Virus record (IMG/VR): IMGVR_UViG_3300046694_000046
Span: 1 to 22,632 of that record
Length of the DNA: 22,632 nucleotides
Direction: 5' to 3' (one strand)
Source: a virus
Shown: positions 2,933-19,854 of the stretch, one piece after another
Layout: the number at the start of each line of letters is the position of its first letter
Numbering within the stretch: the first letter of the stretch is position 1
Translations under genes and position numbers: made by a program
Notes under the pieces: generated by a model
Told to the model about the DNA's origin: nothing
Seen by the model: only the letters and a program-made list of their open reading frames with translations
Databases searched by the model: none

Positions 2933-4561
<1,629 letters not shown>

Positions 4562-15049: not shown

Positions 15050-15741
15050 CAGGGAATCGCCGTTACGTTGATGTTCTGCGTCGGGACCGGGTATGTCGTG
15101 CCCGCGTCCTCGACGCCTGCGTTCTTGCTCGGGTCCGCCATCACGGACGAGTCAGGGACTGTCACAGTCGTCGTCTTCGCCATCAGGATCTGGCGGCACA
15201 CCAGCCGCAGGATCATCGAGTTCTCGGTCTCCGCGCTTGTCGTCTCAGAGATCGATTTGACGATCATGTTCTGATAGACACGCTTCCCGGTGTAGACCGT
15301 AAACAGCGTTCGGGCGCGGTACAGACCGAGCAGGTTGTCGTATTCCCGCTGGACAACCGACTTCCCGGAGCCGAGCGACGTCAACGCCGTGGCGATCCCG
15401 CTCACAGCCTCGACGGCAGCGACCACCGCGCGGGCGGCGCCGCTCTGAGCCGCAGCGAATCCCGCGATAGCGCCGACGGCGCTTGTGCGGTTCGGGCTAT
15501 TCGAAAAGCCATAGGTCAAGATGCACTCTGCTGGCCGGACGAATGCATGGTCGGCGATGACCGTGCCTTGCTCGACGGGATGCTCAGTCACCTCGAGCTC
15601 GTCGCTGTGCACTTCCTCGAATACCGCGTGCGCGACGAACGACGAACTGCCGTCCGCCAGCACGAGCCCGCGCTTTGGCTTGATGACGAGCGTTTGCAGG
15701 GCAATCTGCGCGCCCGCCTCGATGAATCCCAATGCGCTCAC
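15049..15741 (-). CDS. Dit-like baseplate protein
   Basis: The protein has 230 residues. The segment FVAHAVFEEVHSDELEVTEHPVEQGTVIADHAFVRPAECILTYGFSNSP (about 35-84) matches the N-terminal domain of Dit-like proteins of contractile phages. An Ala-rich insert at about 87-123 is followed by REYDNLLGLYRARTLFTVYTGKRVYQNMIVKSI, the returning part of the fold. It would link the tail tube to the hub. Translation begins at GTG 15741, overlapping the tape measure stop (GTGA), with AGGGG upstream. Confidence 0.85.
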   Translation of the reverse strand: MSALGFIEAGAQIALQTLVIKPKRGLVLADGSSSFVAHAVFEEVHSDELEVTEHPVEQGTVIADHAFVRPAECILTYGFSNSPNRTSAVGAIAGFAAAQSGAARAVVAAVEAVSGIATALTSLGSGKSVVQREYDNLLGLYRARTLFTVYTGKRVYQNMIVKSISETTSAETENSMILRLVCRQILMAKTTTVTVPDSSVMADPSKNAGVEDAGTTYPVPTQNINVTAIP

Positions 15742-17318
15742 ACGTATGCCCCTGAGAAGTTTCGCACCATGTCAGCATTGACGCGGCGCTGCTCGTTTGA
15801 CACAGACCGGCCAGTGCCCGCTGGATCGTTCGATCCGGATACGTGGATGTCGGTCTTCTGCTGGATCGTGACGTTGCCCGCCGCGGGCGCCGCGCCATTC
15901 ACGCCGAGCTTGCCGTAAGCCGAGCCGTTTTCGTGCTGAAAGATCGAGCTTGCGACGCCGTTCAGTTGATCACCGTTCAGTGCCGTGTCGGCAGAAACGC
16001 CCAGTTGCTTCGCGACCGCAGCGATGTATGCCTGCGTGTCGTTTTCGTTCGCCGGCGCCCAGCGCGAGATAATCTTGCGGATCGTGTTGAACCCGCGTGC
16101 GGCGTAGCTCTGCAGCAGTTTGGCCGTCGCCTGGATGCCGGACTGCATGTCGCCGAACACAGCGAAACCACCGGAGTCAGCACCGGTCGCGCCCATGCTC
16201 TTCGCGAAATCGCCGTACCGGATGTTGCCCGGGTTGTTGTTCCGGATCCCGCGCGGCGCGCCGCTGGCTGGCACCTCGACAATTGACCCGTCCGGCTGGA
16301 ACCCGCCGTTGCTGGTGCCGTTGAAACGGTCCTGCATCGACTGAACCTTGCCGCGAAGCCAGCCGATGAAAGGACTGTCGCCCGCTTTCGCGCCTGGTGC
16401 CGGCGTCTTGCCTTCGCTATCGTCACCCGCGAAGAACCGCATGACCTTGGCGAATCCGCCGACGATGTTGCCGATCACCTCGGCGACCTTTCCGGCTTTC
16501 GTCAGGAAGAGGTCGACATCCTTGCCGACTTCCGTCCAGTTGATCTCTGCGACCCACTTCGCCACCGCCTCGAGCGCCGACGCAATCTTGCGCGCGACCT
16601 CGTCGGCGTGGCCGGCCGCCCAGCGCTCGAAGCCCTCGGAGATCTTGGTGAGGACCGGAGCCAGATGCTCCTGAAGCAGCACCCAGAACAGATGGATGTC
16701 GCCGGTCAGGTCGCGGATCGAGTTATCGAACGCGCGGCCCGCGTCGGCCGCCTGCTCAGGGTTGATTCCGAAGGCGCCGAGCTTCTGCCGGTACTTTTCC
16801 TGCGCCGCCTGAATCTTCGGCAGGCCGTTCTCGAGCATCAGCAGCGTGTCGGGGTCGATTCCGAACAGGCTGGCATATTGCGCCGCGATGTACGGCTGCA
16901 TCTGCTTCATCTTGCCGATGAAGCTTTCGAACTGTTCGACCGGCCCCTTGCCGGTCACGCCGAGCTGCGCGAGCAGACCGTTCATGCCGGGGTTCAGGCG
17001 CAGCGTGCGCGTGAAGCCCTCAAGCGACGCCTGCGCTTGGTCGGCGGTGAGGCCGATCTGCCCCGCGGCATACCGCAGCGCCATGATGTTGCCGACGGTC
17101 TCGCCTGTGCGCTGCGAGGCGTAATACAGGCGCTCCATCTCTCCGGAGATGACTTTCACGCCCGCGACCACAGCGACGGCGGTCGCAGCCACCGCGGCGC
17201 CGAGCTTCATCACCGTCTTCGTGACGCTCGCGAGCGATGCCGTGAACCGCTTCAGGCTGGTCTCGTCGGTCTTGTAGCCGATCGAGACCAGAAACTCCTT
17301 GATGACTTCTTCGTTCAT
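15738..17318 (-). CDS. Tape measure protein with lysozyme-like domain
   Basis: The protein has 526 residues, short for a tape measure. A hydrophobic segment lies at about residues 38-57 (LGAAVAATAVAVVAGVKVIS), as in many tape measures, followed by helical stretches to about 300. Residues about 356-470 carry RGIRNNNPGNIRYGD, DMQSGIQATAKLLQSYAARGFNTIRKIISRWAP and YIAAVAKQLGV, a virion-associated peptidoglycan hydrolase-like domain seen in phage tail and internal proteins. The order after the chaperone genes and before Dit supports the tape measure call. The domain probably opens the cell wall during DNA entry. The ATG at 17318 overlaps the stop of the frameshift frame (ATGA). Confidence 0.9.
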   Translation of the reverse strand: MNEEVIKEFLVSIGYKTDETSLKRFTASLASVTKTVMKLGAAVAATAVAVVAGVKVISGEMERLYYASQRTGETVGNIMALRYAAGQIGLTADQAQASLEGFTRTLRLNPGMNGLLAQLGVTGKGPVEQFESFIGKMKQMQPYIAAQYASLFGIDPDTLLMLENGLPKIQAAQEKYRQKLGAFGINPEQAADAGRAFDNSIRDLTGDIHLFWVLLQEHLAPVLTKISEGFERWAAGHADEVARKIASALEAVAKWVAEINWTEVGKDVDLFLTKAGKVAEVIGNIVGGFAKVMRFFAGDDSEGKTPAPGAKAGDSPFIGWLRGKVQSMQDRFNGTSNGGFQPDGSIVEVPASGAPRGIRNNNPGNIRYGDFAKSMGATGADSGGFAVFGDMQSGIQATAKLLQSYAARGFNTIRKIISRWAPANENDTQAYIAAVAKQLGVSADTALNGDQLNGVASSIFQHENGSAYGKLGVNGAAPAAGNVTIQQKTDIHVSGSNDPAGTGRSVSNEQRRVNADMVRNFSGAYV

Positions 17319-17913
17319 CGCTTGCTCTTTTCCATGTGGTCTTGGACGCGCGCTTCGTTCTCGCGCTTGACCGACAGCGCGTCATTGAGCAGAGCGACAT
17401 CGCACAGGTCAACCGTGCCGTCGATGAGGGACTCGTATTTCAGCAGCCCCTCCATCACCGGCAGCAGGAGCCAATCCTCGCCATCAGGAAGCGAAGCGAA
17501 CTCGACGCCGCTCAGGCCGCCGCGGTCAAAGCTGACGACGGCCCGCCGGGAAAAAAACTGCCGAGGTTCTGCTGAATGACCGCGACCGTCAGTTGGAGCA
17601 TCGCCGGCAGGTCGATGTCCTGAAACAGCAGACCGCCGTTCTTCACCATGACGCTCTGCCATCCTTGGCCGGATTGCCGCTGAACGACGAGCAGACACGT
17701 GTCGAGCACGTAGTCCGTATCCTCGTCGGACATCTTCGCCAGCGCTTCGGCGATCGGGCTGACCATCTCGGCGAAGCCCTTTGTCTCGCCCTTCAGTGCG
17801 CCGCCGAGTCCCGCGAGGAGCGGGGCGAGCCGCCGCGCGACGTGGAACTGACGCTTCGCATCAAGTCGGCCGATCCGGTACTGCTGGCCGTTGATTTCGA
17901 CAAGTTCGCTCAT
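17315..17913 (-). CDS. Tail assembly chaperone, -1 frameshift fusion (G-T-like)
   Basis: This is the predicted extended product. Ribosomes read the chaperone frame to the two Phe codons at residues 120-121, slip one base back on a run of seven T (17557-17551), and continue in the -1 frame for 78 more residues, giving about 199 residues. The downstream part (WLLLPVMEGLLKYESLIDGTVDLCDVALLNDAL...ENEAR) resembles a small phage protein family of the DUF6889 type. It ends exactly at the tape measure start. The -1 frame has no good start of its own: ATG at 17455 lacks a nearby ribosome binding site. In lambda and many tailed phages the two chaperones are made this way just before the tape measure. 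The alternative is a separately started 46-residue protein (17315-17455). Confidence 0.75.
17512..17557 (-). promoter_or_regulatory. Programmed -1 ribosomal frameshift signal
   Basis: On the minus strand the zero frame reads AGT TTT TTT CCC, giving the heptamer T TTT TTT at 17557-17551. After a 7-base spacer a stem can form: GGCCG (17543-17539) pairs with CGGCC (17519-17515), enclosing an inner hairpin GTCA-GCTT-TGAC (17536-17525). The zero-frame stop TGA follows at 17514-17512. Slippery site, spacer and structure have the usual layout of -1 frameshifting. Confidence 0.75.
17512..17913 (-). CDS. Tail assembly chaperone (G-like, unshifted form)
   Basis: The protein has 133 residues. It starts MSELVEINGQQYRIGRLDAKRQFHVARRLAPLLAGL and continues with helices around AEMVSPIAEALAKMSDEDTDYVLDTCLLVVQR. 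Size, charge pattern and position between tube and tape measure fit the phage tail assembly chaperone group. It coats the tape measure during tail assembly and is not expected in the mature virion. The ATG at 17913 follows the tube stop by two bases (TGATCATG). Near its 3' end it contains a slippery T-run that produces the extended form. Confidence 0.85.
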   Translation of the reverse strand: MSELVEINGQQYRIGRLDAKRQFHVARRLAPLLAGLGGALKGETKGFAEMVSPIAEALAKMSDEDTDYVLDTCLLVVQRQSGQGWQSVMVKNGGLLFQDIDLPAMLQLTVAVIQQNLGSFFPGGPSSALTAAA

Positions 17914-17915
17914 GA

Positions 17916-18359
17916 TCAGACGCCTGCGGCGAGCGCCGGGTCAACGATGCCGGCGTTGAATTCCCATTCGATGGCGCCGGCTTCCTTGGCGTAATCGTTC
18001 TTCGGGAACTTGGTGAACGCCACCGACTGGCAGGTGTAGACGTCGCCGCGCACGGTGTCGGTCGCGGTGAAGATGTTCTGCGCCCAGTTCGCCGAGCTCG
18101 TGCGCTGGAAGTTGTACATCGCCGAGAGCAGAGCGTTCACCGGCGATGCCTTCTGCACGCGGATGGTCAGCTTGCCCGCCTTGCTCGGGTTCAGGCTGTG
18201 CATCGGCGTGCCGTCAGCGCCGATCTTCATGTTGTCGGCGTCCTCGGTGAATTCGACCGAGAAGCCGCCTTCGTCGATGCCGGCGCCTGCGCCCAGCGAG
18301 ATTGCGCCGCCGGGGCCGATCAGCGATGCATTGAAGTTTTGAAACGAATAAACGCTCAT
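17916..18359 (-). CDS. Tail tube protein, DUF3277 family
   Basis: The protein has 147 residues. The start MSVYSFQNFNASLIGPGGAISLGAGAGIDEGG and the segments MKIGADGTPMHSLNPSKAGKLTIRVQKASPVNALL and FTKFPKNDYAKEAGAIEWEF match DUF3277, the tube protein paired with DUF3383 sheaths. It forms the inner tail channel. The ATG at 18359 has a strong AAAGGGG ribosome binding site, fitting its high copy number. It lies ten bases after the sheath stop. Confidence 0.93.
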   Translation of the reverse strand: MSVYSFQNFNASLIGPGGAISLGAGAGIDEGGFSVEFTEDADNMKIGADGTPMHSLNPSKAGKLTIRVQKASPVNALLSAMYNFQRTSSANWAQNIFTATDTVRGDVYTCQSVAFTKFPKNDYAKEAGAIEWEFNAGIVDPALAAGV

Positions 18360-18369
18360 GTGCGCCCCT

Positions 18370-19854
18370 TTATTGGTTCACGGTGATGGCGATGTCCACC
18401 GAGTGGATCGCGCCGGCTTCCTTCGCTGCCACCTGGAACGCCACCGACTTGCGCGCCGCGCGGTTCGCCTGGCTCTGGTTAGCGATCGGCGGAGCGTAGA
18501 CGTAGAAGCCCTTCGGCATGTAATCGCCTTCGCTCAGCGTGCCGAAGCCGCCCGAGTTCCATACGCCAGCCGCGAGGAAGCCGTTCGAGACGTACTGCGC
18601 GCACACCTGCTCGATCTTCGTGGCGATCAGGTGGTTGCCCGCGTCCGTCTGCGGGATCTTCGTCGTGCTCGTGTAGAGCAGATTGAAGACCGCGTTCTGG
18701 ATGTCGATCGCGAGGTTGTCGGCGCCCATCACCGAGTCGATGAAGTCGCCCGACGAGCACACGCCTTGCTCGATGATCGCGGTGTCGTTCTCGTACGCGA
18801 CGAAGACGTTGCAGTTGAAGCCTTCCAGCGCGTTCGCTTGCGTCGTGTTCAGGGTCTCGGCGGTGATGCCGGGCTCCTGCTTGAACTTCAGCGTGATGAC
18901 CGTGTTGTTGCCGGTGTAATCCGTCGTCAGGATCCGCGCGAGCAGCGAGACGGCCGAGTACGCGTTCGAGCTCGAATACTGCACGGCCGTCTTCTTGTAG
19001 CCGAGCTGCTTCAGCTGATACGCGACGTTCGTCGTATCGCTCGCGACCAGCACGCCGGCCTCCTGCGTCGAGACACCGTAGAAGTGCTTCGTCGAGGTGG
19101 CTTCGATGTAGCCTGCGACAGCGACGTGATCCGCATCGACCGCCGACGGGATGCTCAGCGCATACCACTGCTGACCGTAGTTGGCGTCGAAGAGCGTCGT
19201 GGCAGCCAGCGCCGTCTCTGCAGCGATGCCGCCGGAGACGTACGCGCCCGAGAACGTCGACGTCAGGCCCATGAGCCCGGAGATGTCGGTGCCGGAAACA
19301 GGCGCCTGCGCGAAGCTGACCGACGACGTCGCGCCGGTCGTCGCACTGACGATCTCGAACCGCTGGAAGTTCGCGTTCCACACGCACGTGCCGGCGCTTG
19401 TCAGCGCGGTCGTAATCGCAGACGCGACGCCGTTGAGATTCAGCACGCTGCTCAGGTTGATCGAGGCGAGCGTCTTGAGCGTGCCGTCAATCGTGACCTT
19501 CATGCCGCCGGCAGTGACCGCGGTGAAGTTCGACAGTGCTTGCTGCGCGGCCGACAGCGTGCCGCCGAGAAGCTGGCCTGCGGCGGCCGTCTTCGCCCAG
19601 CGGCCGATCATGACCGATGCGGGCTGCGGCGCCTGCTCGAACCAGAGCACAGCGGCTTTGTATTCTTCCGACGTGGTGCCGAAATCGGTGGCGACAGAGG
19701 TGATGTCACCGTAGCTACGGAAGCGCGACACGAGGTCGATAACCGCCGAGGTTCCGAGAATCAGCAGCGTCGAGGTGTTTTGCGATTGCGCGGCTTTCTG
19801 CGTGAGCGAGATCGTCGCGTTGACCAACCGGCTAATCGGCAGCGTGTTCGACAT
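18370..19854 (-). CDS. Contractile tail sheath, DUF3383 family
   Basis: The protein has 494 residues. The N-terminus MSNTLPISRLVNATISLTQKAAQSQNTSTLLILG, followed by DLVSRFRSYGDITSVATDFGTTSEEYKAAVLWFEQAPQPASVMIGRW, is the standard opening of DUF3383 sheath proteins. The C-terminal part (YMPKGFYVYAPPIANQSQANRAARKSVAFQVAAKEAGAIHSVDIAITVNQ) is also typical of the family. It surrounds the tube and contracts to drive it through the envelope, which makes the phage a myovirus-type particle. A terminator hairpin lies directly upstream; the ribosome binding site is GGGAC about 8 bases before the ATG. Confidence 0.95.
   Translation of the reverse strand: MSNTLPISRLVNATISLTQKAAQSQNTSTLLILGTSAVIDLVSRFRSYGDITSVATDFGTTSEEYKAAVLWFEQAPQPASVMIGRWAKTAAAGQLLGGTLSAAQQALSNFTAVTAGGMKVTIDGTLKTLASINLSSVLNLNGVASAITTALTSAGTCVWNANFQRFEIVSATTGATSSVSFAQAPVSGTDISGLMGLTSTFSGAYVSGGIAAETALAATTLFDANYGQQWYALSIPSAVDADHVAVAGYIEATSTKHFYGVSTQEAGVLVASDTTNVAYQLKQLGYKKTAVQYSSSNAYSAVSLLARILTTDYTGNNTVITLKFKQEPGITAETLNTTQANALEGFNCNVFVAYENDTAIIEQGVCSSGDFIDSVMGADNLAIDIQNAVFNLLYTSTTKIPQTDAGNHLIATKIEQVCAQYVSNGFLAAGVWNSGGFGTLSEGDYMPKGFYVYAPPIANQSQANRAARKSVAFQVAAKEAGAIHSVDIAITVNQ

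Follow-up and report, generated by a model that had tools for sequence, protein, structure and literature searches.

The window analysed here is a 22,632-nt stretch of viral DNA (IMG/VR record IMGVR_UViG_3300046694_000046, positions 1 to 22,632), in which a set of tail genes occupies the minus strand (Table 1). Their order is sheath, likely tube, chaperone, extension and tape measure, which fits the placement of lambda G/GT-type genes. The zero-frame product of the chaperone gene matches PF21822 (Phage_TAC_15, E 7.5e-32) and PHROG 1688 (tail assembly chaperone, E 6e-37), and the 78-residue extension in the -1 frame matches PF21829 (DUF6889, E 2e-20); the stop codon of the extension shares bases with the start codon of the tape measure gene (ATGA, with the ATG at 17318). 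The gene in the same position as the likely tube gene has been assigned as tube via HHpred in Bordetella avium phages (PMC10269795). At 526 aa the tape measure protein is short, and the C-terminal third of it (residues 352-498) resembles an endolysin family (PHROG phrog_873, E 3e-42), which suggests a built-in cell-wall-degrading domain. The closest relatives are viral contigs and a prophage of Caballeronia telluris (96% identity), so the host of this contractile-tailed phage or prophage is probably a member of the Burkholderiaceae.

Table 1. Features of the chaperone locus and its surroundings in the window.
Feature	Position	Strand	Remarks
Tail sheath protein	18370..19854	-	PF11863 DUF3383, E 4e-137; PHROG 205 tail sheath, E 6e-120
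Likely tail tube protein	17916..18359	-	Directly 5' of chaperone; PF11681 KPP10_Orf10, E 2e-45
Tail assembly chaperone, short form (lambda gpG-like)	17512..17913	-	133 aa; zero frame, stop TGA 17514..17512
Slippery heptamer T_TTT_TTT	17551..17557	-	Zero-frame codons TTT TTT; T7 run in phase
Spacer CCCGGC, slip site to stem	17545..17550	-	6 nt
Hairpin	17514..17544	-	Arm 17544..17536 (GGGCCGTCG) pairs with 17522..17514 (CGGCGGCCT); 8 bp plus G.U
-1 frame extension	17315..17551	-	78 aa, TCC at 17551 to TGA 17317..17315; DUF6889 near C-terminus
Tape measure protein	15738..17318	-	PHROG 2276 tail length tape measure protein, E 2e-64

The initial annotation had placed an in-phase T TTT TTT ahead of the zero-frame stop, and its coordinates and frames hold on the minus strand, where the context reads CTC GGC AGT TTT TTT CCC GGC GGG CCG TCG TCA GCT TTG ACC GCG GCG GCC TGA. 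T_TTT_TTT is an in-phase X_XXY_YYZ heptamer, which permits re-pairing in both the P and the A site. It is the sole T7 on the minus strand of the window (62% GC), the chance expectation for A7 or T7 runs being about 0.4. A putative fusion of chaperone and extension would comprise about 199 aa. The -1 frame, described as open from the slip point to the tape measure, does reach the start of that gene, but it is also open on the 5' side of the zero-frame stop, over about 346 nt. This means that the window alone leaves the entry point unfixed, and it is the relatives that fix it.

A blastn search of phage records gave only one partial match, and relatives were therefore sought with protein and profile searches. 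The search that started from the chaperone covered viral contigs, bacterial genomes and phage records, and yielded 133 distinct junctions. In all but one of them (L124) the extension is reached via the -1 frame. An independent search starting from the extension gave the same direction, with the extension lying -1 to an upstream chaperone in 80 of 80 loci (none in frame, none +1), and all 58 sampled extensions match DUF6889. In-phase XXXYYYZ heptamers occupy 192 of 381 tested junction positions, versus 0.2% of positions upstream in the same genes, and at the junction the other two phases hold 24 and 0 in 508. The exceptional L124 (1501-1974), from an uncultured betaproteobacterium, has a chaperone homologue without extension, slip motif or FFxR junction, and the tape measure gene follows directly. 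In L150 (1840-2110) the extension is split across two frames near a local CCCGGCCCGG stretch downstream of the junction, which is either an assembly error or a sign of a decaying prophage.

The point of entry is set by five lineages (L102, L168, L119, L122, L143) in which a -1-frame TAA, TAG or TGA stands immediately 5' of TTT TTT. Explaining these stops on the chaperone tree takes five separate changes, and since they abut the TTT TTT, the T run is the earliest point at which the -1 frame can be entered. Conservation of the -1 product begins right at the slip codons, with the pattern F[FY]xR, in which the arginine is present in 120 of 127 junctions. Beyond the zero-frame stop, the extension has, on a codon alignment, a dN/dS of 0.12 in the -1 frame, versus 1.56 and 2.63 in the other two, while the chaperone itself has a value of 0.14; judging by these ratios, only the -1 frame evolves as protein 3' of the zero-frame stop. 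Among 11 near relatives in the clade of the window, TTT TTT CCC is invariant and the neighbouring codons vary.

A different origin for the extension would be a separate gene, translated from its own start codon or by coupling at the zero-frame stop. It is annotated as a separate CDS in two relatives, Bordetella BgManors32 (where it overlaps the chaperone stop) and Edwardsiella ZHS, and the extension in the window has a GTG/ATG pair 32-33 residues in. Both of those records, however, themselves retain the open -1 junction. No ATG, GTG or TTG lies between slip site and domain in 73 of 126 loci, only one of the 126 has a start with a Shine-Dalgarno-like match, and the conserved F[FY]xR begins at the slip codons, 5' of any such start. 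The description of a conserved 78-residue extension without a credible start is borne out, a separate start finds no support, and a separate gene appears quite improbable. T runs are also generally known to slip during transcription, in which case RNA polymerase would yield some mRNAs with an altered U run, encoding an in-frame fusion nearly identical to the frameshift product (PMC3711429). Transcriptional slippage is tied to T runs >8 (PMC3711429), however, while the longest run among 127 junctions is T7, and many relatives carry CCCTTTTA, AAATTTTA or GGGAAATAC, which are ribosomal -1 motifs and not long homopolymers. This explanation appears more improbable still; it and the separate start are both rejected on comparative grounds. 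Homopolymers are generally known to be error-prone in sequencing, and a miscounted run, or decay into a pseudogene, might have split what is really one gene. But the identical split recurs across well over a hundred genomes and contigs, whose junctions show at least 8 different sequences, and purifying selection acts on both frames; an error or pseudogene is already refuted by these comparative data and is the least credible reading, with a negligible chance of being correct.

This leaves a programmed -1 ribosomal frameshift of the lambda G/GT type in the tail assembly chaperone gene, linking the two frames, as the favoured reading, to which we assign a probability of about 95%. Comparison across the family establishes the predicted slip site and its direction, purifying selection on the extension, the junction and its family-wide conservation. 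Most ribosomes would stay in the zero frame and stop at the TGA, giving the 133-aa chaperone. A smaller share would slip back one base in tandem, from T_TTT_TTT to TTT_TTT_T, with perfect re-pairing, while tRNA-Phe decodes TTT TTT and the hairpin stands 6 nt ahead. A slip on the T_TTT tetramer would yield the same SFF|SRR junction peptide as one on the heptamer. The slipped ribosomes would then read the 78 residues of the -1 frame, producing a minor, DUF6889-bearing fusion of about 199 aa. This frameshifting presumably happens at a useful rate, with the hairpin probably acting as a stimulator. If the two forms act as their lambda counterparts do (PMC5009743), the tape measure protein is probably coated by the short form, and tail tube subunits are probably recruited by the rarer long form.

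The motif at the junction differs by clade, being TTTTTTT, TTTTTTG, TTTTTTC, CCCTTTT, AAATTTT or GGGAAAT, and natural junctions in the family include GGGAAATAC, AAATTTTAT, CCCTTTTAT and GCCTTTTAT besides TTTTTTG and TTTTTTT. The class of slip site has changed at least 26 times on the chaperone tree, in which many forks are unresolved. The initial annotation had held that relatives with a disrupted T run and both frames intact would refute a frameshift. Such relatives were literally found (CCCTTTT, AAATTTT, GGGAAAT), yet at these same codons each has a different -1 slippery motif. Since the replacements are slippery at the same place, they extend the frameshift reading and do not refute it. A canonical XXXYYYZ is missing in 17 of the 133 junctions, and all of these but L124 retain an in-phase T_TTT. 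In 119 of 127 junctions the zero frame retains an A-site TTT able to re-pair as TTT, the main exception being GGGAAAT slightly upstream. In E. coli, A-site re-pairing matters most, H_HHU_UUY is among the efficient -1 heptamers, and shifting also occurs on the tetramers U_UUC and U_UUU (PMC4066793); the retention of the A-site TTT across motif turnover fits these measured rules. The all-T heptamer had been called less common, but it is not exotic, given H_HHU_UUY in E. coli (PMC4066793), TTTTTTG in phage P2 (PMC3091744) and the poly-T motifs proposed for other myoviruses (PMC12846349). An earlier comparison found A_AAA_AAG to be much more shift-prone than U_UUU_UUU (cited in PMC5009743).

Immediately downstream, the hairpin ends with a pair that involves the T of the zero-frame stop codon. 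Its predicted fold has an energy of -23.2 kcal/mol, and the fold of the window alone is unexceptional (z -1.6); support for the hairpin comes from its conservation in the clade and from sister clades, not from the window's fold alone. The spacing of the stem is 6 nt rather than the 7 first described, within the ~5-9 nt expected between a -1 heptamer and a downstream structure. An inner hairpin, also proposed, does not appear when the minimum-energy fold is predicted, and relatives whose loop has a 3-nt deletion have lost it. In the clade of the window, 81 of 81 pair cells are kept in nine sequences, and three pairs vary, on one side only. As these changes are one-sided (G.U or A-U swaps), the evidence from this clade is conservation and not covariation, and the shuffle control is uninformative there. 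The CCCTTTT clade has 98 of 98 cells paired, with three pairs changed on both sides, and the Acinetobacter AAATTTT clade 93.8% paired, with eight both-sided cells; the covariation score of each was reached by none of 500 shuffles. No consistent hairpin was found in the enterobacterial clade (mean fold z -0.2), and by these comparisons the hairpin is not a family-wide requirement. An Rfam scan of 17200..18000 returned no family.

A wider reading, which could fall either way, is that Phage_TAC_15/DUF6889 forms a natural series, its frameshift signal repeatedly rebuilt at a single fixed codon position (as GGGAAAT, AAATTTT, CCCTTTT, TTTTTTN, or a bare T_TTT whose P site is imperfect), while A-site re-pairing of UUU as UUU is almost always kept and hairpins occur in some clades only. 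Selection would then hold the ratio of the products and not a particular signal, and DUF6889 would be a tube-recruiting, gpT-like domain.

The arrangement resembles lambda G/GT in its position between the tail tube and tape measure genes, in the -1 direction, in an extension without its own start, and in a predicted pair of products, a short form and a low-abundance, C-terminally extended form; the comparison of 133 junctions supports this likeness, which had been drawn at the outset. The lambda frameshift was reportedly worked out by Levin in 1993 and by Xu, Hendrix and Duda in 2004 and 2013, and the slip site of lambda is GGGAAAG. Unlike lambda (reviewed in PMC5009743), the window has T_TTT_TTT, and the families are Phage_TAC_15 and DUF6889. 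The E/E+E' genes of phage P2 and its Burkholderia relatives are similar in having a T-rich heptamer (TTTTTTG in P2), a -1 shift and contractile tails (PMC3091744). Enterobacterial members of the present family share the TTTTTTG of P2, for which no hairpin has been reported either (PMC3091744), in contrast to the TTTTTTT and downstream hairpin of the window. A further likeness is to the Pakpunavirus/Vandenendeviridae and Andersonviridae (phage Adele), myoviruses in which the -1 frame is open to the end of the extension (PMC12846349). The 3' end of their chaperone gene carries a poly-T slip motif (GTTTTT), for which a 2025 paper argues a -1 frameshift (PMC12846349). The likely tube gene of the window matches the KPP10_Orf10 family, and the Adele-type chaperones are likened here by description and not by sequence.

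Among deposited records, the homologous tape measure chaperone of Burkholderia phage Magia and Klebsiella phage Mulock is given as a joined 'frameshift product', although the frameshift is not discussed in the Mulock genome paper. The heptamer is C_CCT_TTT in Magia, and Mulock has overlapping GGGAAAT/AAATTTT/TTTTTTG, compared with T_TTT_TTT in the window. Five other public records, Bordetella IFTN9 (L014) and BgManors32 (L015), Edwardsiella ZHS (L017), Acinetobacter AbTJ (L018) and Salmonella SEN34 (L019), all keep the -1 junction, and have either the short chaperone alone annotated or the extension as a separate hypothetical protein. A PMC search found no paper naming DUF6889. The phenomenon itself is textbook, -1 chaperone frameshifts being known from many tailed phages. 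What is modestly new is the identification of DUF6889 as a frameshift-encoded domain, the mapping of slip-site turnover and the hairpin covariation. The Pfam family DUF6889 thereby gains a likely role, as the frameshift-encoded C-terminal domain of a tail chaperone, and the family offers a ready panel for studying how a frameshift rate persists while the slippery motif and the stimulatory hairpin turn over.

Structure predictions used an alignment without two rows from annotated records. The AlphaFold2 model of the chaperone has a confident core, with the last ten residues at low confidence, and that of the extension is mostly helical. Foldseek gave no match at E 0.001 with the chaperone model and no PDB match with the extension model, and searches of solved-structure sequences with chaperone and extension profiles found no meaningful relative. 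In a second-look alignment (VIA) of the chaperone model, the top two rows are 5IR0 (Z 8.5) and the HK97 tail assembly chaperone 2OB9 (Z 5.7), both with middling scores.

Two further ORFs on the minus strand of the window are of note. The first (3-1040), at the window edge, begins MKKIFFALLSLLSVSAMAA, which resembles a bacterial secretion signal and is unusual, as its neighbours are tail-fibre-like genes. The same start carries the other 7-base A/T run of the window (1031), which is out of slip phase. The second (2933-4561) is glycine-rich and consists in part of many degenerate repeats of ~25 residues, of the type 'SxAGTLAGVTGxFSASE'.
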